A stretch of DNA of 64,000 nucleotides from Lysobacter sp. BMK333-48F3 (GTDB lineage: Bacteria; Pseudomonadota; Gammaproteobacteria; Xanthomonadales; Xanthomonadaceae): assembly GCF_019733395.1 (NCBI RefSeq), contig NZ_JAIHOO010000001.1, positions 1,984,001 to 2,048,000 of the forward strand. Reading direction: 5' to 3'. Below the pieces are notes generated by a model. That model saw only the letters and a list, made by a program, of their open reading frames with translations. It had not been told where the DNA came from and ran no database searches. This document shows, in pieces, positions 17,062 to 31,364 of this stretch. The position numbers and the translations under genes are program-made. The number at the start of each line of letters is the position of its first letter. Positions within the stretch are counted from its first letter, which is position 1.

Positions 17062-17114
17062 GACAGTCAAGTATAATTTCTTCAAATGATATGCATTGAA
17101 AAAACTTGATTGTC
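17062..17114. promoter_or_regulatory. Nested inverted repeats in the lysR/aceB divergent region
   Basis: Outer arms GACAGTCAAGT (17062-17072) and ACTTGATTGTC (17104-17114) match at 10 of 11 positions. Inside lies a smaller near-palindrome TTCAA...TTGAA (17081-17100). The whole segment is strikingly AT-rich for this genome. This is the expected layout for LysR binding sites between divergent genes; it starts two bases from the lysR ATG. Confidence 0.6.
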
Positions 17115-17192
17115 AAATACAACACGCCGGCGCATGGTCGGGGGCGTCGGGTCGGCTCGTCGGGAGCGGCCCTCTCCCCCAGGAGTCGCACC

Positions 17193-18827
17193 ATGTCGGC
17201 AGTGATCGCGCAGTGGCAGGACCCCCATCCCCAGCAACGGTCGCCGGGCGACGGCATCGAACTGACCGCCGTCGTGGCCGGTCAGGAGTCGCTGCTGACC
17301 CCGGCCGCCCTGGAGTTCCTCGCCGGCCTGCACCGTAGCTTCGAGCCGGCGCGCCAGGCCCGCCTGGCCGCGCGCCGCGAGCGCCAGGCCTATTACGACG
17401 CCGGCGGCCTGCCGGACTTCCGCGCCGACACCGCGCAGATCCGCAACGGCCAGTGGCGGGTCGCGCCGCTGCCGGCCGCGCTGCTCGACCGCCGGGTCGA
17501 GATCACCGGCCCGGTCGACCCGAAGATGGTCATCAACGCGCTGAACTCCGGGGCCAAGGTCTACATGGCCGACTTCGAGGACAGCACCTCGCCGACCTGG
17601 GCCAACCTGCTGACCGGCCAGCGCGCGCTGCGCAAGGCGGTCGCCGGCACCCTGGACTGGATGGCGCCCGACGGCGCCAAGCACTACACCCTCAAGCCGT
17701 TCGAAGAGCAGGCGGTGCTGATGGTGCGCCCGCGCGGCTGGCACCTGGACGAGAAGCATGTGCGCATCGACGGCGCGGCCATGTCCGGCAGCCTGTTCGA
17801 CCTGGGCCTGTTCGCCTTCCACAACGCCAAGGCGCTGGCGGCGCTGGACCGCGGCCCCTACTTCTACCTGCCCAAGCTGCAGTCGATGGAAGAGGCGCAG
17901 CTGTGGAACGAGGTGCTCGACCGGGTCGAGGCCGAGCTCGGCCTGGCGCCGGGCCAGATCAAGGTCACCGTACTGATCGAGACCTTGCCGGCGGTGTTCG
18001 AGATGGACGAGATCCTGCACGCGCTGCGCACCCGCATCGCCGGCCTCAACTGCGGCCGCTGGGATTACGTGTTCTCCTACCTCAAGACCTTCCGCGCGCA
18101 CCGCGACAAGGTCCTGCCCGAGCGCGGCCAGGTCACCATGACCCAGCCGTTCCTGCGCGCCTATTCCGAACTGCTGATCCAGACCTGCCACAAGCGCGGC
18201 GCGCACGCGATGGGCGGGATGGCGGCGCAGATTCCGATCAGCGGCGACGAGGCCGGCAACGAGGCCGCGCTGGCCAAGGTCCGCGCCGACAAGCTGCGCG
18301 AGGTCACCGCCGGCCACGACGGCACCTGGGTCGCGCATCCGGCGCTGATCCCGCTGGCGATGCGGATCTTCGACGAGCGCATGCCGACCCCGCACCAGCA
18401 GCACGTGCTGCGCGAGGACGTGCTGATCATCCGCGACGACCTGATCAAGCCCTGTCTGGGCACGGTCACCCGCGCCGGTTTCGAAGGCAACGTCGAGGTC
18501 TGCGTGCGCTACCTGGCGGCCTGGCTGGAAGGCAACGGCTGCGTGCCGATCCATTGGCTGATGGAAGACGCCGCCACCGCCGAGATCGCCCGCACCCAGC
18601 TGTGGCAGTGGCTGCACGCCGGCGGGCTGTTCCTCGACGACGGCACCCCGATCGATTTCGCCCTGCTCGAACGCGCCCTGATCGGCCTGCCGAGCAAGCT
18701 CGCCGAGCGCATGAAGCTGCCGGGCGGCTCCAAGCTCGACGAAGCCATCGCGATGCTCGACCGCCTGACCCACGCCGACACCCTGGAAGAGTTCCTGACC
18801 CTGCCGGCCTACGAACGCATCGACTGA
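17193..18827 (+). CDS. aceB: AceB, malate synthase A
   Basis: A 544-residue cytosolic enzyme that condenses glyoxylate with acetyl-CoA to give malate. Conserved blocks include NALNSGAKVYMADFEDSTSPTW, VRPRGWHLDEKH with the active-site arginine, the metal-binding IETLPAVFEMDEI, and WLMEDAATAEI with the general-base aspartate. The length and blocks are typical of isoform A. AGGAG lies seven bases before the ATG at 17193. Together with aceA downstream it makes up the glyoxylate shunt. Confidence 0.96.
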   Translation: MSAVIAQWQDPHPQQRSPGDGIELTAVVAGQESLLTPAALEFLAGLHRSFEPARQARLAARRERQAYYDAGGLPDFRADTAQIRNGQWRVAPLPAALLDRRVEITGPVDPKMVINALNSGAKVYMADFEDSTSPTWANLLTGQRALRKAVAGTLDWMAPDGAKHYTLKPFEEQAVLMVRPRGWHLDEKHVRIDGAAMSGSLFDLGLFAFHNAKALAALDRGPYFYLPKLQSMEEAQLWNEVLDRVEAELGLAPGQIKVTVLIETLPAVFEMDEILHALRTRIAGLNCGRWDYVFSYLKTFRAHRDKVLPERGQVTMTQPFLRAYSELLIQTCHKRGAHAMGGMAAQIPISGDEAGNEAALAKVRADKLREVTAGHDGTWVAHPALIPLAMRIFDERMPTPHQQHVLREDVLIIRDDLIKPCLGTVTRAGFEGNVEVCVRYLAAWLEGNGCVPIHWLMEDAATAEIARTQLWQWLHAGGLFLDDGTPIDFALLERALIGLPSKLAERMKLPGGSKLDEAIAMLDRLTHADTLEEFLTLPAYERID

Positions 18828-18841
18828 TCCCCGCTTCAGGG

Positions 18842-18939
18842 GTAGGAGCGGCGCGAGCTGCGACCGCGATACCGCAAGCGCATCGCGAGTCCGAGGTCGC
18901 GGCTTGTGCCCGAAGGCGATCCCTGTAGGACGCCGCTCC
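18842..18939. repeat. Inverted pair of GTAG REP-like elements between aceB and aceA
   Basis: A forward short copy (GTAGGAGCGGCGCGAGCTGCGACC, 18842-18865 region) faces an inverted long-variant copy (18895-18939) whose insert contains GGGATCGCCTTCGGGCAC. The pair can form one large stem. An intercistronic REP pair could cause the downstream gene to be expressed at a different level by altering mRNA decay. Confidence 0.8.
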
Positions 18940-18996
18940 CGCCCAGTTTCCCATCACGCCCCCACGTCACCAGACCCAACGTAAGGAATCGAAGTC

Positions 18997-20298
18997 ATGA
19001 GCCACACGCTGCCGACCGCCGACCAACTCCGCCACGATTGGGCGACCAATCCGCGCTGGGCCGGCATCACCCGCCCGTACTCGGCCGAGGACGTGGTGCG
19101 CCTGCGCGGCACCGTGCCGGTCGAACACTCCATCGCCAAGCTCGGCGCCGCCAAGCTGTGGAACTACCTGCAGACCGAGGACTTCATCAACGCCCTCGGC
19201 GCGCTGACCGGCAACCAGGCCATGCAGCAGGTCAAGGCCGGACTCAAGGCGATCTATCTGTCGGGCTGGCAGGTCGCCGCCGACGCCAACATCGCCGGCG
19301 AGATGTACCCCGACCAGTCGCTGTACCCGGCCAACTCGGTGCCGCAGGTGGTGCGCCGGATCAACAACACCCTGCTGCGCGCCGACCAGATCCAGTGCTC
19401 GGAAGGCAGCGGCGAAGTCGACTTCCTGCAGCCGATCGTGGCCGACGCCGAAGCCGGCTTCGGCGGCGTGCTCAACGCCTTCGAGCTGATGAAGGGCATG
19501 ATCGAGGCCGGCGCTTCGGGCGTGCACTTCGAAGACCAGCTGGCCTCGGTCAAGAAGTGCGGCCACATGGGCGGCAAGGTGCTGGTGCCGACCCGCGAAG
19601 CGGTCGAGAAGCTGGTCGCCGCGCGCTTGGCCTCCGACGTGATGGGCGTGCCGACCCTGATCGTCGCCCGCACCGACGCCGAAGCCGCCGACCTGCTGAC
19701 CGCCGACATCGACTCCAACGACCAGCCCTTCACCACCGGCGAGCGTACCGTCGAAGGCTTCTACAAGACCCGCAACGGCCTGGATCAGGCGATCAGCCGC
19801 GGCCTGGCCTACGCGCCCTACGCCGACCTGGTGTGGTGCGAGACCGGCAAGCCGGACCTGGAATTCGCGCGCCAGTTCGCCGAGGCCATCCACGCCAAGT
19901 TCCCGGGCAAGCTGCTGGCCTACAACTGCTCGCCGAGCTTCAACTGGAAGAAGAACCTGGACGACGCCACCATCGCCAAGTTCCAGAAGGAAATCGCCTC
20001 CTACGGCTACAAGTTCCAGTTCATCACCCTGGCCGGCTTCCATTCGCTGAACTACTCGATGTTCAACCTGGCGCACGGCTATGCGCGCCGGCAGATGAGC
20101 GCCTTCGTCGAATTGCAGGAGGCCGAGTTCGCCGCCGCCGACAAGGGCTTCACCGCGGTCAAGCATCAGCGCGAGGTCGGCACCGGCTACTTCGACGCGG
20201 TGACCCAGACCATCCAGGGCGGGCAGTCCTCGACGGTGGCGCTGAAGGGCTCGACCGAGGAAGAGCAGTTCCACGACGGCGCCAAAGTCGCGGCCTGA
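18997..20298 (+). CDS. aceA: AceA, isocitrate lyase
   Basis: A 433-residue enzyme cleaving isocitrate to glyoxylate and succinate. The active-site signature KKCGHMGGK is at about 187-195, and the [13 protein letters not shown] block supplies further substrate contacts. The length matches bacterial ICL-1 enzymes. AAGGA precedes the ATG by 11 bases. It lies 169 bp after aceB on the same strand, separated by a REP pair, and is followed by a strong terminator. Confidence 0.97.
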
Positions 20299-21513: not shown

Positions 21514-22563
21514 ATGAATCGCGACGTGACGGTGCCGACGATGGCCCGTGAGACCGACAATACGATGACGACCGCGGCGCCGACGGACGCGGCGACGGCC
21601 GTCCTCACGCCCGGCGAATTCGAATTGTTCGCCGAGATCGGCCGCCCGCGCCGGGTCGAGGCCGGCCAGGTCGTGTTCCGCCGCGGCGAGCTCGGCACCA
21701 CCATGTTCGTGATCGCCCGCGGCGCGGTCCTGCTGGACTTCGGCGACGACCTGGTGACCAAGCGCCTGGGCGTGCGCGAGTTCTTCGGCGAGCTCGGCCT
21801 GCTGATCGGCGACCACGCCCGCAGCGCCGACGCCATCGCCGCCACCGACGGCCTGCTGGTCGAACTGCGCCACGAGGAGTTCCAGCGCCTGGTCGATCGC
21901 GACCCGGCCCTGGTCTCGCATTTCCTGCGCCGCGCGATCATGCGCGTGGTGCTCAACGAGCAAAGCCTGATCCGGCGCCTGCGCCGGCGCAACCAGGACC
22001 TGGAGGCCGCGCTCGACAGCCTGTACGCGACCACCCACCAGCTCAACCAGACCGAAGAACTGGTCCGCACCGACGACCTGACCGGGCTGTACAACCGCCG
22101 CGGCCTGACCCTGCATCTGCAGGAAAGCCGCGCCCTGGGCATGCCGGAGACCATGGGCCTGATCCTGGTCGACTGCGACCGCTTCAAGCAGGTCAACGAC
22201 GACCACGGCCACCTGGCCGGCGATCGGGTCCTGCAGAGCGTGGCCAATATCCTGCGCTCGGTGGCCGGGCCGGAGGACATCGCCTGCCGCCTCGGCGGCG
22301 ACGAGTTCTGCCTGCTGGTGGCCGCCTCGACCCGCCAGGACGTCATGCGCTTCGCCGAGTTCATCGTCGCGACCGTGCACGGCCTGCTGGATATCCCGCA
22401 GTCGCCGCCGACGATCTGCCCGGTCAGCGTCGGCGCCTGCCTGGTCAGCGCCAAGTACGATTGGAACGATTGGTATGCGCACGCCGATGGCGCGCTGTAT
22501 CAGGCCAAGCGCCTGGGCGGCAATCGGGTGCATTGGCAGGATGCCGAACTGACGCCGGCCTGA
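21514..22563 (+). CDS. Cyclic-nucleotide-binding (CRP-like) domain fused to a GGDEF diguanylate cyclase domain
   Basis: A 349-residue cytosolic protein. Residues about 30-150 form a CRP/cNMP-binding beta-roll (EAGQVVFRRGELGTTMFVIARGAVLL, then FFGELGLLIGDHARSADAIA). A helical linker (150-185) leads to the GGDEF domain with an intact RLGGDEF active-site loop, so it probably makes c-di-GMP. The upstream DLTGLYNRRGL and DCDRFKQVNDDHGHLAGD blocks are canonical. GGGGAGA stands before the ATG at 21514. It is followed after 25 bp by the cyclase-like gene, suggesting a two-gene operon in which a nucleotide signal could gate c-di-GMP synthesis. Confidence 0.9.
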   Translation: MNRDVTVPTMARETDNTMTTAAPTDAATAVLTPGEFELFAEIGRPRRVEAGQVVFRRGELGTTMFVIARGAVLLDFGDDLVTKRLGVREFFGELGLLIGDHARSADAIAATDGLLVELRHEEFQRLVDRDPALVSHFLRRAIMRVVLNEQSLIRRLRRRNQDLEAALDSLYATTHQLNQTEELVRTDDLTGLYNRRGLTLHLQESRALGMPETMGLILVDCDRFKQVNDDHGHLAGDRVLQSVANILRSVAGPEDIACRLGGDEFCLLVAASTRQDVMRFAEFIVATVHGLLDIPQSPPTICPVSVGACLVSAKYDWNDWYAHADGALYQAKRLGGNRVHWQDAELTPA

Positions 22564-22588
22564 GCCATCGTCGACAAGGATGCCGTTG

Positions 22589-25138
22589 ATGAACGACGCC
22601 CACCGCCCGAACCCCGACGGGCCGCAGCTGCGGACCCTGTTGCTGACCGACCTGTGCGATTCGACCACCCTGGTCGAACGGCTCGGCGACGGCCCGGCGG
22701 CGGGTCTGTTCCGCGAGCACGATCGCCTGGTGCTGCAGCTGCAGCAGCGTTGGCGCGGGCGCTTGATCGACCGCTCCGACGGCCTGTTGCTGCTGTTCGA
22801 GCGCCCGATCGACGGCCTCGGCTTCGCCCTGGACTACGCCCGCGGCCTGCGCGAGCTCGGCGCCAGCCGCAAGGTCGAGCTCAAGGCCCGCGCCGGCCTG
22901 CACGTCGGCGAGGTGCTGACCTGGCGCAACAGCGACGAGGCGGTGCGGGTCGGGGCCAAGCCGGTCGAAGTCGAGGGACTGGCCAAGCCGATGGCGGGGC
23001 GGTTGATGGCGACCGCGCGGCCGGGGCAGATCCTGCTCTCGGCGGTGGCCGAGCCGCTGGCCCATCGCGCCGCGCGCGAGCTGGGCGAGCGCGGCCAGCA
23101 ACTGCTGTGGAAATCGCACGGCCGCTGGCGCTTCAAGGGCGTGCCCGAGCCGCAGGAAATCTACGAGGTCGGCGAGCCCGGGATCGCCCCGCTGCGCGCG
23201 CCGCCGAACGGGCCCAAGGCCTGGCGCGACATCCCGCTGTGGCGGCGCCCGGCGGCGCTGGCGGCGGAGCTCGCGGTGCTGGCGGTGATCGGCACCGGCA
23301 TCTGGTTCGCGACCCGGCCGCAGCCGGCGATCGCCTTCAACCAGCGCGACTGGGTGGTGGTCGGCGACCTGCGCAACCTGACCGGCCAGAGCGTGCTCGA
23401 CGATTCGCTGGAGCAGGCGTTCCGGATCAGCCTGGAGCAGTCGCGCTACGTCAACGTGCTGTCCGACCTCAAGGCGCGCGACACCCTCGACCGCATGCAC
23501 CGCAAGCCGGACACCGTGCTCGACCGCTCGATCGCCTCGGAGATCGCGCTGCGCGACGGCGCGCGCGCGGTGATCCTGCCGACCGTGGCCGAAGTCGGCG
23601 GACGGGTGCGGGTCAGCGCCGAGGTCATCGATCCGCACACCCAGACCACGGTCTACGCCGAATCCGCCGACGGGGTCGGCGCGGCCTCGGCCCTGGCCTC
23701 GATCGACGAGGTCACCACCGCCCTGCGCGGCAAGCTCGGCGAGGCGCTGAAGAACATCGAGAAGGATTCCGAGCCGCTGCCCAAGGTCGCCACCGGCAAC
23801 CTCGACGCGCTGCGCGCCTACGCCCTGGGCGCCAAGGCGTACGCGCATCGCCAGTTCGACGACGCTCTGCAGTACTTCCAGCGCGCGGTCCAGATCGACC
23901 CCAATTTCGCCCTCGCCCACATGGGCGTGATGCGGGTATACGTCAGCAACGCCGACACCGACGCGGCGCGGCCGTACCTGGAGAAGGCCCAGCAGCTGCG
24001 CGACCACCTGACCCCGCGCGAGGCGATGTACCTGGACGCCTGGGCCGCGGAATTCGGCCCGAAGCCCTCGCGCAACGCGCCGCAGAAGTGGCGGATGCTG
24101 GCCGAGTTCTATCCCGACTACTTCGCCGGCCGCTACCAGTACGCCTGGTCCGAGTTCCTGGCCAACGATTTCAAGGACGCGCTTGCGGCGACCACCGCGG
24201 CCACCGCGCCGCAGGAGCCGCTGCGCAACGTCGCCTTCGAACTGGCCGGCCGCGTGCACCTGTCGCAGGAACGCTACGCCAAGGCGATCGAATCGTTCAA
24301 GCAGGCCGAGGCCAGCGGCCATTACCCGCCCAACCGCCGCCATGCCGCCGCGTTGGCGGCGATGCGCCGCTTCGACGAGGCCAACCGGATCCTCGACGGG
24401 CTCACCGCCGACGGCGATATCGGCTCGGCCAACCTGACCGTGCAGTTCGAGCGCATCTCCGTCGCCCTCGATCAGAACGACCTGGCCCGCGCGCGCGAGC
24501 TGTCGCGCAAGGCGGCCGAGGCGGCGCGCGACGCCGGCCCGCTGGTGCGGCATCCGATCCGCTTCACCGACTTGCTGGTGCGCAGCGTGTCCGGCCAGAA
24601 CCGGCCCAGCGCCAGCGAGATCGAACAGTTCGCCCAGGGCGTGCTCAACGATGCGGCCAAGCCCGGCAGCGCCGACCAGGACGATTTCTCGGTGATCGCG
24701 CTGGCGGCGGTGCGGCTGGCGCAGCGCCAGGGCGAGCGCGCCGTGGCCGAACGCCTGTTGCCGCGGGTGGCCGGGCTGGTCGACGCCAGCGGCAACGTCC
24801 AGTCGCAGAAGCTGCTGCGGGTCGCCTACGCCGAACAGGCGCGCCTGGGCGGCGATCCGCAGCGCGCGGTGCGCGAGTTGCGCGCCCTGCTCGACGACAG
24901 GGAGCCGTTCCAGGCCCGGGTCGCCTTGCGCGATGCCTTGCTCGCGGCCGGCCGCAGCGACGAGGCCGCGCGCGAGAACCAGTGGATCGCCGAGCACCGC
25001 GGCCGCGCCTACGCCGAACCGTTCGGCGGCCAGGTCTTCGTGGCGATGAACGTCGCCGACGCCGCGCGCGCGCAACGCGAATCGGCGCGCACCGTGGCGG
25101 TGATCAAGGTGACCGCGCCGATGGCTGCGGCCGGTTGA
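22589..25138 (+). CDS. Class III cyclase-like membrane protein with TPRs ('peptide modification system cyclase' type)
   Basis: An 849-residue protein. Residues about 15-160 resemble a class III nucleotidyl cyclase: LLLTDLCDSTTLVERLGD with the first metal Asp (about 21), SDGLLLLF with the second Asp (about 64), GLHVGEVL, and AGRLMATARPGQILLS with the transition-state Arg (about 138). By eye the substrate-specifying Lys and the Asn before that Arg are not conserved, and a few residues are inserted, so activity is doubtful. A single transmembrane helix (about 223-243) follows, then a TolB-like segment and TPR repeats (about 400-820). As I recall, this architecture sits beside NHLP-like peptides in Xanthomonadales. 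I chose the ATG at 22589 because AAGGA ends nine bases upstream and abuts the ATG at 22580. Confidence 0.85.
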   Translation: MNDAHRPNPDGPQLRTLLLTDLCDSTTLVERLGDGPAAGLFREHDRLVLQLQQRWRGRLIDRSDGLLLLFERPIDGLGFALDYARGLRELGASRKVELKARAGLHVGEVLTWRNSDEAVRVGAKPVEVEGLAKPMAGRLMATARPGQILLSAVAEPLAHRAARELGERGQQLLWKSHGRWRFKGVPEPQEIYEVGEPGIAPLRAPPNGPKAWRDIPLWRRPAALAAELAVLAVIGTGIWFATRPQPAIAFNQRDWVVVGDLRNLTGQSVLDDSLEQAFRISLEQSRYVNVLSDLKARDTLDRMHRKPDTVLDRSIASEIALRDGARAVILPTVAEVGGRVRVSAEVIDPHTQTTVYAESADGVGAASALASIDEVTTALRGKLGEALKNIEKDSEPLPKVATGNLDALRAYALGAKAYAHRQFDDALQYFQRAVQIDPNFALAHMGVMRVYVSNADTDAARPYLEKAQQLRDHLTPREAMYLDAWAAEFGPKPSRNAPQKWRMLAEFYPDYFAGRYQYAWSEFLANDFKDALAATTAATAPQEPLRNVAFELAGRVHLSQERYAKAIESFKQAEASGHYPPNRRHAAALAAMRRFDEANRILDGLTADGDIGSANLTVQFERISVALDQNDLARARELSRKAAEAARDAGPLVRHPIRFTDLLVRSVSGQNRPSASEIEQFAQGVLNDAAKPGSADQDDFSVIALAAVRLAQRQGERAVAERLLPRVAGLVDASGNVQSQKLLRVAYAEQARLGGDPQRAVRELRALLDDREPFQARVALRDALLAAGRSDEAARENQWIAEHRGRAYAEPFGGQVFVAMNVADAARAQRESARTVAVIKVTAPMAAAG

Positions 25139-25277
25139 AACCGGAACGACGGCTTTCGCCGCCGGCGCGGGCCGGGGCCCGGCTTCGCGGCGTGCGCTAC
25201 GGCGTAGCGGAACAGGGCGGTTCCGTCGCGGCGGCGGGCTCCCCGGCCCGGCGCCGCGCGGAATCGCCGGACGCGGC

Positions 25278-25640
25278 TTAGCTCAGTACGCTGCCGCCGC
25301 CCGAGCCGACGGCGCCGCCGGCGGTGGCCTGGACCTGGCCGAACTCGAGCACGAACACCACGGTGTGGGTACCGGCCGAGGTGAAGTAGTCGCGCAGCAC
25401 GTCGCGCGAGGCCTGCAGTTCTTCCTTGCTCGCCAGCATGCTGACGTTGAGGCAGCTGCCGCCGGCCAGCGCGGCTTCGCTTTGCAGCGGCGCCAGGCCG
25501 AGGCTTTGCAGCGCACCCTCGGGATTGCTGGCGAAGCTTTGCCGAAACTGGTCGTCCGAGCTCAGCAGATCGAGCAACTTGTCGGCGACTTCGGGCGCCA
25601 ACGGCGGATGCCCGGGCTGGCCGTTGTTTTCGATAGACAT
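25278..25640 (-). CDS. NHLP-like putative RiPP precursor peptide
   Basis: A 120-residue peptide. The segment APEVADKLLDLLSSDDQFR (residues 15-33) and the following FASNPEGALQSLGL resemble the nitrile-hydratase-like leader (NHLP) fold used by RiPP precursors. The only cysteine is at 63 (GGSCLNVSML). A helix (71-88) and a hydrophobic strand (THTVVFVLEF) lead to a Gly/Ser tail, TAGGAVGSGGGSVLS, as likely core. No signal peptide is seen. The start at 25640 has GGGAAA just upstream. It is encoded opposite to both flanking genes, with its own promoter and an inverted repeat upstream. I recall it as the 'putative modified peptide' family of Xanthomonadales; no product structure is known to me. Confidence 0.82.
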   Translation of the reverse strand: MSIENNGQPGHPPLAPEVADKLLDLLSSDDQFRQSFASNPEGALQSLGLAPLQSEAALAGGSCLNVSMLASKEELQASRDVLRDYFTSAGTHTVVFVLEFGQVQATAGGAVGSGGGSVLS

Positions 25641-25686
25641 CTGTTTCCCCTTGTGAAGACCCGGCTTGGGCCTGTCTGCGGCGGAA

Positions 25687-25714
25687 TTTATCTCTGATGT
25701 GGAGCGGCGAACAA
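25687..25714 (-). promoter_or_regulatory. Candidate promoter of the precursor peptide gene
   Basis: On the minus strand TTGTTC (complement of 25709-25714) and GATAAA (complement of 25687-25692) are 16 bp apart, giving a 5' leader of about 40 bases. The match is moderate (3 and 4 of 6). This AT-rich pocket contrasts with its surroundings. Confidence 0.4.
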
Positions 25715-25728
25715 CCTTTACGCTCCAC
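25699..25728. promoter_or_regulatory. 8-bp inverted repeat around the precursor promoter
   Basis: Arms GTGGAGCG (25699-25706) and CGCTCCAC (25721-25728) enclose the putative -35 element. It lies in the divergent gap between the precursor and the dehydrogenase, so a regulator bound here could affect both. Confidence 0.5.
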
Positions 25729-25889
25729 TGAGCAGTCACGCGAAAGCGCTGGAGGGTCGGCCAATCGCGTTCCGATGAACGCGTTCAGCTAGCTGCCTGC
25801 GGCATCGCCCGGCATCATGGCGCCTGCCGGCGCGATACGCGCGCCGCGGACGCCGCCTCGCGGCGCTCCTTCTACGACTCGGGGCGTTC

Positions 25890-27068
25890 ATGCGCATTCG
25901 CCGTTGCAGCGTGCTGTTCCTGGAGCCGCGCGAAGACGTGGCTTTCGATCTGTCGTCGCTGCTGTCCGGCGGCGCCGGACTGGCGCGGCGACGGCGCTGG
26001 CTGGCGCTGGCCGCGCATCTGGACGGCGAGACCGAGATCGACGCGGCGCAGCGCGAACTGCTCGGCCGGATCGGCCCGGGCGAATGGGTCGACGCGGCGG
26101 CCTTCGACGCCGACGCCGCGACCCTGGCGCGACTGCTGGAGGCCGGCCTGGTGCTGAGCGACGGCGACGAGCCGGCGCGCGCGGCCTGGCGCGAACGCGA
26201 CGAACGCCTGCGTGCGGCGTACTGGTGGCCGGCCGCGGCGATGATGCACCGGCTGGCGCGCTGGCAGGGCCTGGACAGCGTCGGCGCGATGGAGGCCAAC
26301 GAACTGCACACCGCGCCGGATCTGCGGCGCAAGCTCGGCGCGCCGCCGCCGCACGCGCCGTCGCGCGCCGATGCCGGGCCCAGGCTGGCCTTGCCGCGCG
26401 CCGGCGATACCGATTTCGACCGCCTGCTCGCCCAGCGCGCGACCTGCCGCAACTTCGACCCCGCGCGGACGCTGAGCCGCGAGCTGTTCGCGCATATGCT
26501 GCAGCGCGTGTTCGCCGCGCAATCGATGGTCGCGGTCGCCGACGACACGGTGTTCCTCAAGAAGCACTCGCCCTCCGGCGGCGGCCTGCATCCGACCGAG
26601 GCCTATCTGATCGTGCAGCGCGTCGACGGCATCGCGCCGGGGCTGTACCACTACCACCCGGTCGATCACGCGCTGGAACCCTTGCCGGCGCCGGACGGCG
26701 AGCTGCACCAGTTCGCCCTGCGCGCCCTGGCCGGACAGCATTGGTTCGCCGATGCCGCGGCGATGGCGGTGCTGACCCCGCGCTACGCGCGCAGCTTCTG
26801 GAAGTACCGGTACCACGCCAAGGCCTACCGCGCCCTGCTGCTGGACAGCGGTCACCTGTCGCAGACCCTGTACCTCAGCGCGACCGAACTCGGCCTGGGC
26901 GCCTTCGTCACTGCGGCGATCAACGAGGTCGACATCGAGCAGGCCTTCGGCCTGGATCCGCTGGTCGAAGGGCCGCTGGCGATCTGCGGCTTCGGCTGGC
27001 GCGGCGAGCGCATGCGCAACACCGAGTTCGATCCCAGCGGCGCGATCTGGCCGCGGCCGGCGCGGTAG
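25890..27068 (+). CDS. SagB-like FMN-dependent dehydrogenase, putative peptide maturation enzyme
   Basis: A 392-residue protein. Residues 1-165 form a variable N-terminal domain with a winged-helix-like feel. The nitroreductase/SagB domain (about 170-390) carries ATCRNF (FMN phosphate contact), SPSGGGLHPTEAYL (227-240), YHYHPVDHALEPL and LDSGHLSQTLYLSATELGLG. In azole-forming RiPP pathways SagB/McbC-type enzymes oxidise azolines to azoles. Here no YcaO cyclodehydratase is nearby, so another oxidation (for example dehydrogenation of the peptide backbone or a side chain) is possible. It is divergent from the precursor gene with 249 bp between them. Confidence 0.85.
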   Translation: MRIRRCSVLFLEPREDVAFDLSSLLSGGAGLARRRRWLALAAHLDGETEIDAAQRELLGRIGPGEWVDAAAFDADAATLARLLEAGLVLSDGDEPARAAWRERDERLRAAYWWPAAAMMHRLARWQGLDSVGAMEANELHTAPDLRRKLGAPPPHAPSRADAGPRLALPRAGDTDFDRLLAQRATCRNFDPARTLSRELFAHMLQRVFAAQSMVAVADDTVFLKKHSPSGGGLHPTEAYLIVQRVDGIAPGLYHYHPVDHALEPLPAPDGELHQFALRALAGQHWFADAAAMAVLTPRYARSFWKYRYHAKAYRALLLDSGHLSQTLYLSATELGLGAFVTAAINEVDIEQAFGLDPLVEGPLAICGFGWRGERMRNTEFDPSGAIWPRPAR

Positions 27069-27171
27069 CGGTCGCGCGCAGGCGTCGCGCGCGGGTCGGC
27101 CAAGCGCGGCCAGGACGACGCCATGGCCGCGGTGGCATGCTGGGCCTCCCGTTACGACAGGTGCGACGCGC

Positions 27172-28254
27172 ATGTGGCCCGACCGCCGTATCCAGGACTT
27201 GTTCGGCATCGAACTGCCGATCGTGCAGGCGCCGATGGCCGGGTCGAACCTGGCCGAGCTGGCGATCGGCGCCGCCCGGGCAGGGGCGCTCGGTTCGCTG
27301 CCGTGCGCGACGCTGAGCGTCGAGCAGGCGCTGGCGCAATGCCGGCAGGTGCGCGAGGCGACCGCTGCGCCGCTGAACCTCAATTTCTTCTGCCATCGCC
27401 CGCCCGCAGCGGACCCGGCGCGCGAGGCGGCCTGGCGCGAACGCCTGGCCGGCTATTACCGCGAATACGGCCTGGCCCCGTCGCTGCCGACGACGCCGTC
27501 GAGCCGGGCGCCGTTCGACCCGGCGTATTGCGAGCTGGTCGAGCAGGTGCGGCCGCAGGTGGTCAGCTTCCACTTCGGCCTGCCGGCGCCGCCGCTGCTC
27601 GAACGCGTGCGCGCGACCGGCGCGCGCATCGTGTCCTCGGCGACCACGGTGGCCGAGGCGTGCTGGCTGGAAGCGCACGGCTGCGATGCGATCATCGCCC
27701 AGGGCGCCGAGGCCGGCGGCCATCGCGGCGTATTCCTGTACGACGGCCCGCTTAAAGACGGTGTGTCGACCCAGGTCGGCCTGTTCGCGTTGTTGCCGCA
27801 GGTGGTCGATGCGGTGCGGGTGCCGGTGATCGCCGCCGGCGGCATCGGCGATGCGCGCGGCATCGCCGCCGCATTCGCGCTCGGCGCGGCGGCGGTGCAA
27901 CTGGGCACCGCCTATCTGTTCTGCCCGGAGGCGAAGCTCTCGCCCTTGCACCGGCAGGCCCTGCGCGAGGCGCGCGACGACGGCACCGCGCTGACCAATC
28001 TGTTCACCGGCCGGCCGGCGCGCGGCATCGTCAACCGCTTGATGCGCGAACTCGGCCCGGTGTCCGCGCTGGCGCCGGAATTCCCGCTCGCCGGCGGCGC
28101 GCTGGCGCCGTTGCGCGCGCCGGCCGAAGCCGCCGGCGAGGCCGGCTTCATGCCGCTGTGGTCGGGGCAGGCGGCGCGGCTGGGACGCGAGTTGCCGGCG
28201 TACGAGTTGACGCGCGCTCTGGCGCAGGAAGCATTGGCGTTGTTGCGGCGCTGA
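27172..28254 (+). CDS. Nitronate monooxygenase / 2-nitropropane dioxygenase-type flavoenzyme
   Basis: A 360-residue FMN-dependent TIM barrel. IVQAPMAGSN near residue 17-26, the class I signature AQGAEAGGHRG (about 177-187, with the catalytic His) and VIAAGGIGDARGIAAAFALGAAAVQLGTAYL (phosphate binding) are all present. The family oxidises alkyl nitronates such as propionate-3-nitronate. It lies on the same strand 103 bp after the SagB-like gene, so it may belong to the peptide locus or just be a detoxification gene next to it. Confidence 0.88.
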   Translation: MWPDRRIQDLFGIELPIVQAPMAGSNLAELAIGAARAGALGSLPCATLSVEQALAQCRQVREATAAPLNLNFFCHRPPAADPAREAAWRERLAGYYREYGLAPSLPTTPSSRAPFDPAYCELVEQVRPQVVSFHFGLPAPPLLERVRATGARIVSSATTVAEACWLEAHGCDAIIAQGAEAGGHRGVFLYDGPLKDGVSTQVGLFALLPQVVDAVRVPVIAAGGIGDARGIAAAFALGAAAVQLGTAYLFCPEAKLSPLHRQALREARDDGTALTNLFTGRPARGIVNRLMRELGPVSALAPEFPLAGGALAPLRAPAEAAGEAGFMPLWSGQAARLGRELPAYELTRALAQEALALLRR

Positions 28255-28299
28255 GGGGGCGGCGATAGCGCCGGAGCGGTAGAGCGGCAGGGCAAAAGC

Positions 28300-28334
28300 A
28301 AATCCCCCCTACCCCCCTTTTTCAAAGGGGGGAA
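28300..28334 (+). repeat. C6T3/A3G6 hairpin repeat, copy 3
   Basis: AAATCCCCCC, TA, then CCCCCCTTT-TTC-AAAGGGGGG and AAC. It pairs with the inverted copy 46 bp downstream. Confidence 0.9.
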
Positions 28335-28379
28335 CAGCCGTGGCGGCTTCATAAGGGAACAGCCCTTGCGCTCTTGCCT

Positions 28380-28414
28380 TTCCCCCCTTTGAAAAAGGGG
28401 GGTAGGGGGGATTT
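28380..28414 (-). repeat. C6T3/A3G6 hairpin repeat, inverted copy 4
   Basis: An exact inverted partner of the copy at 28300. The two could form one long stem enclosing TTCATAAGGG... sequence. It lies between convergent genes, where it may serve as a bidirectional mRNA end. Confidence 0.9.
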
Positions 28415-28457
28415 GCTTTTCGGCTTCCCCGCGCCGCAACCCGCGAGCGGCGAACCC

Positions 28458-31364
28458 TCAGGCTTTCGGCAGTTCCGGCAGGCCCAGGTCGCGGATCACC
28501 GCCTCGAGGTGGCCGATGGTGCTGATGTTCGCGTTGACCTTCACCGCCATGCCGCCGCCGCCGTGGATGAAGGTTTCCGGACGGTAGACCGTGGTGTCGC
28601 TGCCGAACTTGCCGACGTCGCCGTCGATGTCGTCCAGGGCGAAATGCAGCTGGCTGCGCAACTTGTCGAGCTGGCCGTCGTCCATGCTGTTGACCCAGTC
28701 GACGAACTTCTTCTGGTCGGCCGGATTGTCCAGCTTGTAGCCCTTGTCGGTGGCGTAGCGGGTGAGCAGCGTCACCGGGCTCCAGCCTTCGCCGCTCTGG
28801 TCGACCAAGGCTTTGGAGGTGGCTGCGTCGAAGCCGGCATGGCTGAGGAACTTGGCCGAGGTTTCGTTCATGTGCGCATTGGAGTGATCGACCCGGTCCT
28901 TCATGGTCAGGCCGATCGTGCCGATCGCGACCAGGGCGATGCCGACCGGGCCCAGCCAGCTGCCGGCGCCGAGCGAAGCGGCCAGGCTGGTGCCCGACAG
29001 CGCGGCCATGGTGCCGCCGACGCCGCTGACCGCGTACAAGCCGGCGCGGACGTTGTCTCCTGCGGAGTAGCTGGTCGCCGCCGCCCAGTAATCGAGTCCG
29101 GCGCTGAGGTGGCCGAACACGCGGTCGGCGCGGGTCATGCGGCCCGGGTCGATGCTGCTGCCGTCGTTGGCGCGGTTGCCGGCGCCGAAGCGGCCCAGGG
29201 CCGAGTTCTCGGCGACCATGCCCAGGCCGACCGCGAGCTCGGTGCCCTTCTGGCCCAGCGAGGCGGCGTCGACGATGGCCTTGATGTCGTTGCGGTTGGC
29301 CAGGGTGAACTGGCCGTCGTTGGCCTTGCCCTGCGAGTTGAGGTAGCCGATGGTGGCGAAGCCGACGCCGACCATGCGCAGCACCTGGCCGACCGGCTGG
29401 TTCTTCTCGAAGGTCGGGCGATGGCCTTCGGCGGTGAAATGCCGGTCGACGTTGTCCATCGCATCGGCGTGGGTCTTGAGCTTGTCGACGATCTGCTGGG
29501 TGCCGTCGCCGGCCGCCGGCAGGCTCTTCTTCAACTCGTCGACCAGCTTGACGTAGCTCTGGTACTTGCTGCTGTCGACGTCCATGCCGAGCGCCTTGAC
29601 CAGGGTCGGGTTCTTCAGCCGCTCGATCGCCTGCTCGGCCTGCTGGATGCTGGCCGGGTTGCGCGGGTCGTAGTTCTGCGCCGCCGCCAGCACGTCGTTG
29701 CGGATGTAGGCGTTGGCCAGTTCCTTGGTCAGCTTCAGGCCCTGTTCGCCGAGCTTGGCGTCGTAGGCGTTCTTCTGCATCAGCCGCTTGCCGGCCTCGC
29801 TGTCGATGTACTCCGGATGCTTCTTCAGCGCCAGGCTGATCGCGTAGGAGGACTTGGAGTCGCCGAGGATGCCTTCGATGGCCTTGTCGGCGGCGGCCTT
29901 CTGATCCGGCGGCAGGTTGCTCAGGCTTTCGATCTGATCGAGCAGGGTCTGGCCGCCCTTGGCGACCTTTTCTTCCATCGCCTGGATGTTCTTTTCCCAG
30001 TTCGGATCTTTCTTCAGCTGGTCGGCGGTGTAGTCCTGGATCGCCTTGTTGAGCTGGTCCGGCGTCATCGAGCCGCCGTGGTTGCTGATCAGCCAGGTCA
30101 GCTCGTCGGTGGCCTTGGCCAGTTTGTCGACGTCGCCGTTGAGGCTGCCGGCATAGGTCTTGACGCCTTCGATCGCGGTGGCGGTGATGCGCTCGCCGCC
30201 GCCGGCCTTGGCGATCGCGACCAGCAGGTCCGGGCGCGCGCCTTCGGTCACGGCGAGGTGGATCTGGCTGGCGTCGACCGGCAGGTCGGCCATGCGCTGG
30301 ACCACCGCAAGACCGTCGGCCGTATTGCCGACGCGTCCGGCGATGTTCACCAGCGCGGTGGTGCCTTCGATGCCCAGGCGAATGCTGTAGCCGTCCTTCT
30401 CGGCGCGCTGGAAGAAATCGCTCAGCGCATCGGTGCCGCGTCCGGCCAGTTCGTTGGCGATGCGCGGATCGGCCTTCTCGACCAGGGCCTGCAACTGCAG
30501 CAGGCTTTCCTTCGGCGGCGCGCTCGGGCCGCTGCGCGAGTTCTCCCACGGTTCGCCCTGCAGCGGCTTGGTGAACGACGGTGCGATCTTTTCGTCCATC
30601 AGCTTGTCGAAGCCCGGGCTGGACAACAGTCGCGTCTGCGCCTCCGGCGACAGCTTGGGCAGGTCGCGGCTCAGCGACTCGACCGCGCCCTTGGCGTCGC
30701 CCATGGCGTTGGCGGTCGACAGCGCGGTGTCGACTTCGTGCTGGACGCCGAAGTCCTTGACCGCTGCCTCGGCCGCGGCCTTGCCGGCCGGGTCGTTCTC
30801 GTAGCGCTTGATCACCGCCGCACCGTACTGCTCGATCGCCTTGCTGTCGAAGATGTCGCCGGTCGGCCGCGAACGGGCGGCGAACTCGGCCTTGATCTCG
30901 GCGCCGATCGCGTCGCGCAGTTCGGTGCGCGCGGTGTTGGCCTGGCCGGCGTAACCGCTGCGCAGCGGCTGGTAGTCCGGGTCGTTGTGGTTGCGCTGGT
31001 AGCCGCTCTCGAACGCGGTCAGGTTGTCTTCGGCGGTCAGGTACTTGCTCATCGCCTGATCGCTCTTGCCCTGCTCGGGCGTGGCGTTCGGCGCCGCCTT
31101 GGGTTCGGCGTGCTGCTTGATCGTCGGCACGATCAGGTTCTGCCCCGGCTTCACGCCGTCCGCGCCGAGCTGGTTGCGGTCGGCGATGTCCTGCGCGGTG
31201 ACCGGCGCTTCCGGCGTGCTGTACTTCTGTGCGATCGACTCCAGGCTCTCGCCGTTCTCGACGGTGTGGAACTGCTCCTGCGGCTGCGGCGGCGGCACCG
31301 TTTGCGCCGGCTGCTGGAAGTACTGCGGGTAGTAGGACACGCCATCGAGAGTCGGGAAGCCCAT
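28458..31364 (-). CDS. Large LysM-domain protein of unknown function, possible secreted effector or translocator
   Basis: A 968-residue protein without a classical signal peptide. A LysM-like domain covers about 30-82 (FHTVENGESLESIAQKYS...KPGQNLIVP). A long hydrophilic helical region (90-700) is rich in Lys, Ala and Asp. A hydrophobic, Gly-rich stretch (about 772-820, ending GPVGIALVAIGTIGLTM) could insert in a membrane. The C-terminus (830-968) contains FLSHAGFDAATSKALVDQSGEGWSPVTLL and an acidic DDIDGDVGK motif. The layout recalls Xanthomonas type III translocator-like proteins (HrpF/NolX), but I cannot demonstrate this. It stands alone, divergent from the TPR gene. Confidence 0.8.
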   Translation of the reverse strand: MGFPTLDGVSYYPQYFQQPAQTVPPPQPQEQFHTVENGESLESIAQKYSTPEAPVTAQDIADRNQLGADGVKPGQNLIVPTIKQHAEPKAAPNATPEQGKSDQAMSKYLTAEDNLTAFESGYQRNHNDPDYQPLRSGYAGQANTARTELRDAIGAEIKAEFAARSRPTGDIFDSKAIEQYGAAVIKRYENDPAGKAAAEAAVKDFGVQHEVDTALSTANAMGDAKGAVESLSRDLPKLSPEAQTRLLSSPGFDKLMDEKIAPSFTKPLQGEPWENSRSGPSAPPKESLLQLQALVEKADPRIANELAGRGTDALSDFFQRAEKDGYSIRLGIEGTTALVNIAGRVGNTADGLAVVQRMADLPVDASQIHLAVTEGARPDLLVAIAKAGGGERITATAIEGVKTYAGSLNGDVDKLAKATDELTWLISNHGGSMTPDQLNKAIQDYTADQLKKDPNWEKNIQAMEEKVAKGGQTLLDQIESLSNLPPDQKAAADKAIEGILGDSKSSYAISLALKKHPEYIDSEAGKRLMQKNAYDAKLGEQGLKLTKELANAYIRNDVLAAAQNYDPRNPASIQQAEQAIERLKNPTLVKALGMDVDSSKYQSYVKLVDELKKSLPAAGDGTQQIVDKLKTHADAMDNVDRHFTAEGHRPTFEKNQPVGQVLRMVGVGFATIGYLNSQGKANDGQFTLANRNDIKAIVDAASLGQKGTELAVGLGMVAENSALGRFGAGNRANDGSSIDPGRMTRADRVFGHLSAGLDYWAAATSYSAGDNVRAGLYAVSGVGGTMAALSGTSLAASLGAGSWLGPVGIALVAIGTIGLTMKDRVDHSNAHMNETSAKFLSHAGFDAATSKALVDQSGEGWSPVTLLTRYATDKGYKLDNPADQKKFVDWVNSMDDGQLDKLRSQLHFALDDIDGDVGKFGSDTTVYRPETFIHGGGGMAVKVNANISTIGHLEAVIRDLGLPELPKA

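Follow-up and report, generated by a model that had tools for sequence, protein, structure and literature searches.

The question raised by the locus described here is why a precursor peptide and a peptide-tailoring type of enzyme are encoded next to a nucleotide-signaling pair. In the 64,000-nucleotide stretch of the Lysobacter sp. BMK333-48F3 genome that was analyzed (the window), four neighboring genes encode a cyclic nucleotide monophosphate (cNMP)-binding GGDEF protein, a membrane cyclase with a tetratricopeptide repeat (TPR) half, a small precursor peptide and a SagB-like dehydrogenase. Our results suggest that these genes probably constitute a polymorphic locus for peptide signaling in which the receptor is a guanylate cyclase. 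The TPR end of the cyclase gene, the peptide gene and the dehydrogenase gene almost certainly form a polymorphic cassette, which was placed at 23780–27068 from sliding DNA identity and per-segment identities; its left edge is approximate and not the same in all genera.

The cNMP-GGDEF gene (21514–22563, plus strand) matched PF00027 with 60.7 bits and PF00990 with 128.6 bits. It is followed by the plus-strand gene of a transmembrane guanylate-cyclase-like protein (22580–25138; TIGR04510, 1156.5 bits, cut-off 400), the minus-strand gene of a 120-residue precursor peptide of the nitrile hydratase leader peptide (NHLP) type (25278–25640; TIGR04509, 87.7 bits, cut-off 34) and the plus-strand gene of the SagB-like dehydrogenase with a nitroreductase fold (25890–27068; TIGR04511, 579.3 bits, cut-off 240; PF00881). 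The peptide, cyclase and dehydrogenase are therefore members of these three families, each above the curated cut-off, and the TIGR04509 score also assigns the peptide to the NHLP leader clan. With the cyclase gene the peptide gene forms a convergent pair, with the dehydrogenase gene a divergent one. Among the matches listed, the closest database relatives of the window proteins were those of Lysobacter firmicutimachus, with identities of 92–94%.

An original prediction, made from the DNA sequence alone, held that the three NCBI families co-occur, and profile searches bore this out: of 200 genomes from the order, an identical set of 43 scored above cut-off for each of TIGR04509, TIGR04510 and TIGR04511. 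None of the 200 genomes had merely one or two of them, and precursor and SagB-like genes without the cyclase gene, which had been set beforehand as refuting a single system, did not appear. In 44 stretches, comprising the window and 43 stretches from 42 further carrier genomes, the common gene order was [LysR, aceB, aceA], cNMP-GGDEF, cyclase, peptide (opposite strand) and dehydrogenase; in G025, the parts were split over two short contigs. A cNMP-GGDEF match was found with phmmer in 39 of the 44 stretches, and this gene was also directly 5' of the cyclase gene in loci of other families (G059, G012, G002, and G033). The cyclase family was found in 20/20, 18/20, and 80/81 genomes of three genera (118/121 in total). 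All four genes were present in 77 of 80 named loci, and the remaining three loci were on records of 9.7, 3.1, and 3.8 kb.

The nucleotide-signaling half of the locus is not new. According to an experimental study in Xanthomonas campestris, XC_0250, which consists of a class III cyclase domain and an uncharacterized TPR domain, makes cyclic GMP (cGMP), and XC_0249, a cNMP and GGDEF protein, binds cGMP and then produces more cyclic di-GMP (c-di-GMP); mutants of either gene were lowered in biofilm and virulence, and biofilm returned in the XC_0250 mutant when only the cyclase domain was expressed (PMC3770947). Such a rescue is expected if the TPR half is regulatory. Thus, the original prediction, which called the locus poorly described and knew of no characterized product, does not hold for the half already studied as XC_0250/XC_0249 (PMC3770947).

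The gene pair, its order, its domain make-up and all activity or contact residues named in that paper are common to X. campestris and the window (PMC3770947). The residues were mapped from the published positions with constant offsets of 4 for the cyclase and 3 for the GGDEF protein. The cGMP-contact residues F73, E90, H98, N145, and E146 of XC_0249 correspond to F76, E93, H101, N148, and E149 of the window protein, which were kept in 139, 140, 139, 114, and 139 of 140 sequences, respectively. The activity residues D41, D71, L73, A150, L157, and A161 of XC_0250 correspond to D37, D67, L69, A146, L153, and A157, which were kept in 141, 143, 116, 143, 120, and 139 of 143 sequences. All six residues needed for cGMP synthesis and all five needed for cGMP binding are thus present in the window proteins. 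Given their architecture, adjacency, residues and family, the window genes appear to be the counterparts of XC_0250 and XC_0249. Among solved structures, chain 5h5o_A, named "Diguanylate cyclase", came closest to the GGDEF protein (E 3.8e-44); we take it to be a domain of XC_0249. The cNMP-GGDEF protein is the conserved output end of the system.

The predicted topology divides the cyclase into four parts, all encoded on the plus strand. A cytoplasmic class III cyclase domain (residues 14–200, 22619–23179) is the conserved half, with median identities of 96% in the genus of the window and 95% in a Xanthomonas group (g9). It is followed by a transmembrane helix predicted from hydropathy, with arginines on the cyclase side (residues 225–243, 23252–23308), by a predicted periplasmic alpha/beta domain of intermediate conservation (residues 255–400, 23342–23779) and by a hypervariable, predicted periplasmic TPR superhelix, the proposed sensor, recognized from TPR matches and the structural model (residues 405–830, 23792–25069). 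Of 138 sequences, 133 had a single hydrophobic segment behind the catalytic domain and 5 had two. The AlphaFold2 model of residues 255–852 had a mean predicted local distance difference test (pLDDT) score of 93.9. Residues 255–400 may resemble TolB-N/FlgO-like domains, to which there was a weak Pfam match. The conservation minimum was at residues about 601–750 in all three genera. In a Foldseek search against the PDB, the TPR model matched general TPR proteins, with no close whole-length relative among those listed.

Variation was assessed in 144 loci: besides the window, 43 stretches came from the order sample, and Lysobacter (the genus of the window, g1), the Xanthomonas group and Stenotrophomonas (g3) contributed another 100. 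Identities and co-variation were calculated for the 138 loci with GGDEF, cyclase and dehydrogenase; the six loci left out (G014, G024, G073, G091, and two contigs of G025) were each without one of these, and G611 and G645 were outside the locus set although their genomes matched the cyclase family. For GGDEF, catalytic domain, cyclase residues 215–400, TPR half and dehydrogenase, respectively, the median pairwise identities were 94, 95, 68, 30, and 55% in the Xanthomonas group, 93, 96, 89, 49, and 70% in Lysobacter and 73, 70, 50, 29, and 47% in Stenotrophomonas. Given that the catalytic and TPR medians diverge, the two halves of the cyclase evolve under different rules. For instance, G190 and G195, which are from one genus, had identities of 97% for GGDEF as well as the catalytic domain, 25% for the TPR half and 31% for the dehydrogenase. 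G195 and G136, which are from different genera, were 64% identical in GGDEF, 81% in the catalytic domain, 44% in the TPR half and 55% in the dehydrogenase. In 93 pairs, identities were at least 93% for GGDEF and at least 95% for the catalytic domain, yet below 50% for the TPR half.

At the DNA level, this hypervariability was confined to a sharply bounded block. Between X. arboricola pv. juglandis CFBP2528 and NL_P126, identity was 89–98% across the GGDEF gene and about the first 590 bp of the cyclase gene, with the exception of one 83% segment at the GGDEF start; it was 35–69% over the next 3.6 kb, through the end of the dehydrogenase gene, and again 91–97% in the 2 kb after that gene. The comparison with X. 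arboricola pv. populi gave a similar sliding pattern. Identity between G190 and G195 was back to 78–87% directly after the dehydrogenase gene, and between G190 and G101 or G141 low identity extended about 1.7 kb past it, where the gene content differs. Five strains named X. arboricola carried three alleles, one in populi, one shared by guizotiae, juglandis and CFBP7645 and one in NL_P126. The TPR half of NL_P126 was 81% identical to that of X. codiaei and 30–31% identical to those of the four other X. arboricola-named strains. Its upstream DNA was 92–94% identical to that of these four and 88% identical to that of X. codiaei. The cassette appears to be exchanged as one block between strains while the signaling half stays fixed.

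Trees built from 36 chosen loci, 18 of them from the Xanthomonas group, were incongruent. In the tree of GGDEF and catalytic domain, the 18 loci formed one clade with a support of 99.8; in the TPR tree they were scattered, and a clade of them was rejected by the approximately unbiased (AU) test (p-AU 6e-17). Within the Xanthomonas group, the Spearman correlation of identities was 0.89 between TPR half and dehydrogenase, 0.07 between catalytic domain and TPR half and 0.02 between catalytic domain and dehydrogenase. Given the catalytic domain, the partial correlations between TPR half and dehydrogenase were 0.26, 0.34, 0.89, and 0.64 for Lysobacter, Stenotrophomonas, the Xanthomonas group and all loci, respectively, values reached by 1, 0, 0, and 0 of 500 shuffles. 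The peptide, represented by the best-scoring one of each genome, co-varied with the TPR half: in the same order, the partial Spearman correlations given the catalytic domain were 0.78, 0.66, 0.70, and 0.60, which none of 300 shuffles reached in any set. The correlations of peptide with catalytic domain given the TPR half were 0.15, 0.07, 0.12, and 0.18, and those of peptide with dehydrogenase given the catalytic domain were 0.10, 0.27, 0.77, and 0.44.

The peptide gene has a strong Shine-Dalgarno sequence, AAGGGGAAACAG, ahead of its ATG. As read across the loci, the peptides ranged from 78 to 131 residues, no signal peptide was evident in their sequences by eye and the copy number of the gene varied. 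The window peptide scored 24.2 bits with NF038399 (Os1348 family), under the cut-off of 40. When its model (pLDDT 70.5) was searched with Foldseek, Os1348, SonA, nitrile hydratase and a proteusin precursor ranked first, all with E >1 and thus not significant. The Gly/Ser-rich tail described in the original prediction was seen in the allele group of the window (5 of 20 genomes of the genus) and is not a feature of the family at large. Some loci (G175, G195, G136, G033, and G067) had the dehydrogenase gene on the other strand and peptides with short hydrophobic tails. In G091 (L103), five tandem, near-identical peptide genes precede the dehydrogenase gene, which itself lies before the cyclase gene. 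An inverted repeat between the peptide and dehydrogenase genes was rejected as a conserved operator, as it was not kept in the Lysobacter and Xanthomonas-group loci shown. Elsewhere in the genome of the window are two C39-peptidase genes, which are candidate export genes only.

The dehydrogenase matched the SagB family TIGR03605 with 122.2 bits and had sequence matches to the structures of McbC, CyaGox and BmdC. Because W304, K305, Y306, H309, K311, H322, and Q325 were invariant in 143 of 143 sequences, the enzyme looks active. The role of the Lys-Tyr pair is known from azoline dehydrogenases. Similar to the thiazole/oxazole-modified microcin (TOMM) or azole systems, the locus thus encodes a SagB-type dehydrogenase with this pair (K305-Y306); different from them, it has no YcaO partner and its peptide tails are not rich in Cys/Ser/Thr clusters. 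That there is no YcaO gene nearby, as stated in the original prediction, is true even genome-wide, where the profile search gave no PF02624 match. YcaO was found in 2 of 43 carriers (G068 and G199, on a contig other than that of the locus) and in 35 of 157 non-carriers. Given its absence from this genome and from 41 of 43 carriers, classical azole (TOMM) chemistry is unlikely. The substrate chemistry of the dehydrogenase must differ from azoline oxidation as usually described, and we favor dehydrogenation within the C-terminal portion of the peptide.

Additional receptor genes were found in several genomes. Three Stenotrophomonas genomes (G096, G610, and G667; loci L102, L214, and L215) have an intact 641-residue frame after the dehydrogenase gene, whose product has the membrane helix and a TPR half with no cyclase domain. 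The extra TPR halves were 67–71% identical to the active TPR halves of G661, G624, and G634, and the active TPR halves of G096, G610, and G667 themselves belong to another group. Moreover, G110 has the complete cyclase-peptide-dehydrogenase set twice, and a second full cyclase is present in each of G599 and G609. Extra receptors and second sets are what allele exchange or capture would leave, and the cyclase-less membrane-TPR proteins, which are of a foreign allele group, could be decoy receptors.

The original prediction regarded all genes from 21514 to 28254 as one system. Profile searches found the five genes where it had put them, and the three families and the cNMP-GGDEF gene are tied together; the fifth gene, for a nitronate monooxygenase (27172–28254, plus strand; PF03060, 260 bits), was present in none of the 43 other stretches and is ruled out as a member. 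The window locus also adjoins the glyoxylate shunt genes aceB-aceA and a LysR gene (17106–20298), as in most Lysobacteraceae loci; aceB, aceA and LysR genes recurred in 33, 35, and 30 of the clustered loci, respectively. They too are ruled out as members. The stretches of G059, G012, G002, and G033, from other families, hold the four-gene module with no isocitrate lyase, and aceB-aceA-GGDEF occur together without the module in G106 and G111. Since each thus occurs without the other, aceB, aceA and LysR are mere neighbors. Full-length GGDEF relatives (61–72%) were found in the non-carriers G106, G111, G583, and G591, and GGDEF-domain matches only in G032, G054, G126, and G607. The four stretches with full-length relatives had no cyclase or dehydrogenase match at E 1e-5 except one in G583 (E 1e-9), made by the N-terminus of a G190 open frame that is over-long and extends into GGDEF coding sequence; this match is taken as an artefact of that frame. 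Farther downstream in the window, a large near-perfect inverted repeat (AAATCCCCCCTACCCCCC... / ...GGGGGGTAGGGGGGATTT; 28297–28420) separates two convergent genes and looks like a dispersed repeat or terminator, and 28458–31364 on the minus strand encodes a 968-residue protein whose one named domain is an N-terminal LysM domain.

Of 369 genomes of the class, five scored above cut-off for TIGR04511, and these were all inside the order. Eight actinobacterial proteins from Streptomyces, Kitasatospora and Kribbella (P0017, P0018, P0019, P0022, P0023, P0026, P0038, and P0039), however, were 66–73% identical to the dehydrogenase encoded at 25890–27068, above many proteobacterial ones. Restriction of the dehydrogenase to the order would therefore be wrong; the identities point to travel of the enzyme, by transfer between phyla, or to contamination. 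Among the best 120 cyclase matches, only part of which carry names, no Streptomyces, Kitasatospora or Kribbella record was found. A plasmid collection yielded 218 records, each of which was less than 60% identical and covered less than 80% of the query. One contig carrying the locus (L312; JAHREJ010000008.1, 108,265 bp) is titled Bacillus subtilis subsp. subtilis SK7B5; this title is probably wrong, and the record fits G651 of the Stenotrophomonas group.

We propose that the precursor peptide would be oxidized by the SagB-like dehydrogenase and exit the cytoplasm, and that the TPR superhelix on the periplasmic side of the membrane cyclase would recognize it. Recognition would set cGMP synthesis by the cytoplasmic cyclase domain, cGMP would activate the neighboring cNMP-GGDEF protein and the resulting c-di-GMP would alter biofilm and related behavior. 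Receptor half, peptide and modifying enzyme would swap as a cassette between lineages, so that strain groups would each have their own peptide and receptor. That the peptide is oxidized, exported and bound by the TPR half and that signaling is group-specific are inferences, and our confidence differs among the parts. It is likely that the TPR half senses the peptide in some form, and somewhat less so, though still probable, that the peptide is a diffusible, group-specific signal. The full description, in which a receptor guanylate cyclase is gated by a ribosomal, oxidized peptide, the cassette crosses species, cGMP/c-di-GMP and biofilm responses are group-specific and some strains keep a cyclase-less receptor of a foreign group as a decoy, is put forward tentatively. 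Joint variation of peptide, enzyme and receptor is what would be expected for a private peptide language among related bacteria. The link drawn in the original prediction between nucleotide signaling and peptide maturation is kept, with one change: the likely direction is from peptide to nucleotide signal, the peptide being the input of the cyclase, and not from nucleotide signaling to control over a natural product.

Several points weigh against this proposal. The X. arboricola-named strains represent separate GTDB species clusters, and the polymorphism is one among very close relatives, not within a population sample. Neither a secretion signal nor a transporter was found in the block in the neighborhoods of the 44 stretches. 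Four of 8 non-carrier genomes have the GGDEF gene although they lack the rest of the module, so that this gene is not exclusive to it, and the actinobacterial relatives hint that the dehydrogenase is able to work in another context. As to co-variation, the peptide gene, the TPR end and the dehydrogenase gene are adjacent, so that joint transfer could yield co-variation without binding, and the sequence pairs are not independent, for which the shuffles correct in part only. In the Xanthomonas group, where dehydrogenase and TPR identities are nearly collinear, the peptide-TPR correlation falls to 0.09–0.20 when the dehydrogenase is controlled, and the peptide-dehydrogenase correlation stays at 0.28–0.59. 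In Lysobacter, peptide and dehydrogenase do not co-vary (the partial correlation of 0.10 was reached by 35 of 300 shuffles). With the dehydrogenase controlled, the peptide-TPR correlation stays at 0.65–0.81 in Lysobacter, depending on the peptide region, and at 0.37–0.61 in Stenotrophomonas. Because the equally close peptide-dehydrogenase pair does not co-vary in Lysobacter, an extra tie between peptide and receptor is spoken for there, not proven.

The same observations were compared with three other explanations. The peptide, modified or not, might serve its own TPR half as ligand or subunit, either inside the producing cell or through cell contact, so that the locus would confer self-identity without a diffusible signal and serve contact-dependent kin recognition or receptor assembly. 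Co-variation and block exchange are equally compatible with this explanation, the block has no export gene, the peptides show no signal peptide by eye and, at 78 to 131 residues, they are large for a signal. However, the single membrane helix places the TPR half outside the cytoplasm, and a peptide without an obvious export signal would still need to be exported to reach it; moreover, a short C-terminal tail behind a conserved leader resembles a processed precursor. We consider this explanation unlikely. A similarly low probability is given to antagonism by a ribosomally synthesized and post-translationally modified peptide (RiPP), where the peptide would be a modified antimicrobial or other product, sensed or regulated by the cyclase, and strain-against-strain competition would drive the polymorphism. 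An NHLP-type leader and a SagB-like enzyme are indeed RiPP parts, and block polymorphism is expected for bacteriocin loci too. Nevertheless, no immunity or transport gene recurred in the neighborhood clusters, the unit is near-universal in three genera rather than patchy, and the output studied so far is c-di-GMP and biofilm (PMC3770947).

It is more improbable still that an outside driver, such as a phage, a host or a molecule of a competitor, diversifies the TPR half and that the peptide and dehydrogenase genes hitchhike. The genes are physically adjacent, the dehydrogenase of Lysobacter is less variable than the TPR half (70 vs. 49%) and phage defence includes nucleotide-cyclase systems. 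In the X. arboricola comparison, however, the 91–97% DNA identity just past the dehydrogenase gene puts the enzyme inside the block and the next gene outside it, and all genes of the block have stayed together in each of the 43 carriers. In PADLOC, the cNMP part of the GGDEF protein matched TIR-effector and PycC-named models weakly (17.9–33.8 bits) and the cyclase protein matched no PycC model, so that a Pycsar anti-phage system is unsupported.

If the peptide is the ligand, the module would work like comQXPA of Bacillus, a pherotype locus similar in layout to the window cassette (PMC6334282). Similar to comQXPA and agr-like loci, the enzyme, the peptide and the extracytoplasmic receptor half were observed here to vary as a block next to a conserved signaling half. 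Different from comQXPA, which encodes the isoprenyl transferase ComQ, ComX and a histidine kinase, the module encodes a SagB-like dehydrogenase, an NHLP precursor and a TPR guanylate cyclase; no ComQ, ComX, ComP or ComA homolog was found, and the four proteins had no histidine kinase or isoprenyl transferase match. The likeness is thus one of analogy, not of family membership. The RRNPP peptide receptors NprR and Rap, which are defined by a peptide-binding TPR fold, were also among the systems compared with the module, and animal peptide-gated guanylate cyclases would be a parallel in plan if the cyclase is peptide-gated.

What is added to the known XC_0250/XC_0249 pathway is the peptide, the dehydrogenase and the polymorphism. 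The text of the X. campestris paper, as searched, contains neither XC_0251 nor XC_0252 nor the word peptide (PMC3770947). Among openly licensed PMC papers, a search that is no proof of absence, none was found that joins the cGMP pathway with a peptide or dehydrogenase, and none contained the accessions or names of TIGR04509, TIGR04510, or TIGR04511. NCBIfam, in which the window genes are members of these families, gives names only, such as "putative peptide modification system cyclase". That name is corrected by our results, as the cyclase is more likely a receptor than a modification enzyme.

The 2013 study did not settle which signal controls the Xanthomonas cGMP-to-c-di-GMP pathway or what the TPR domain does. 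The genetics described here offer candidates for three roles: the neighboring peptide as signal, the TPR half as sensor and the dehydrogenase as tailoring enzyme. To our knowledge, little is known of peptide-based strain-specific signaling in Gram-negative bacteria. If the proposal is true, such signaling would exist in nearly all genomes of three genera (118/121), and the SagB-like dehydrogenase family operating without YcaO would have its first function.

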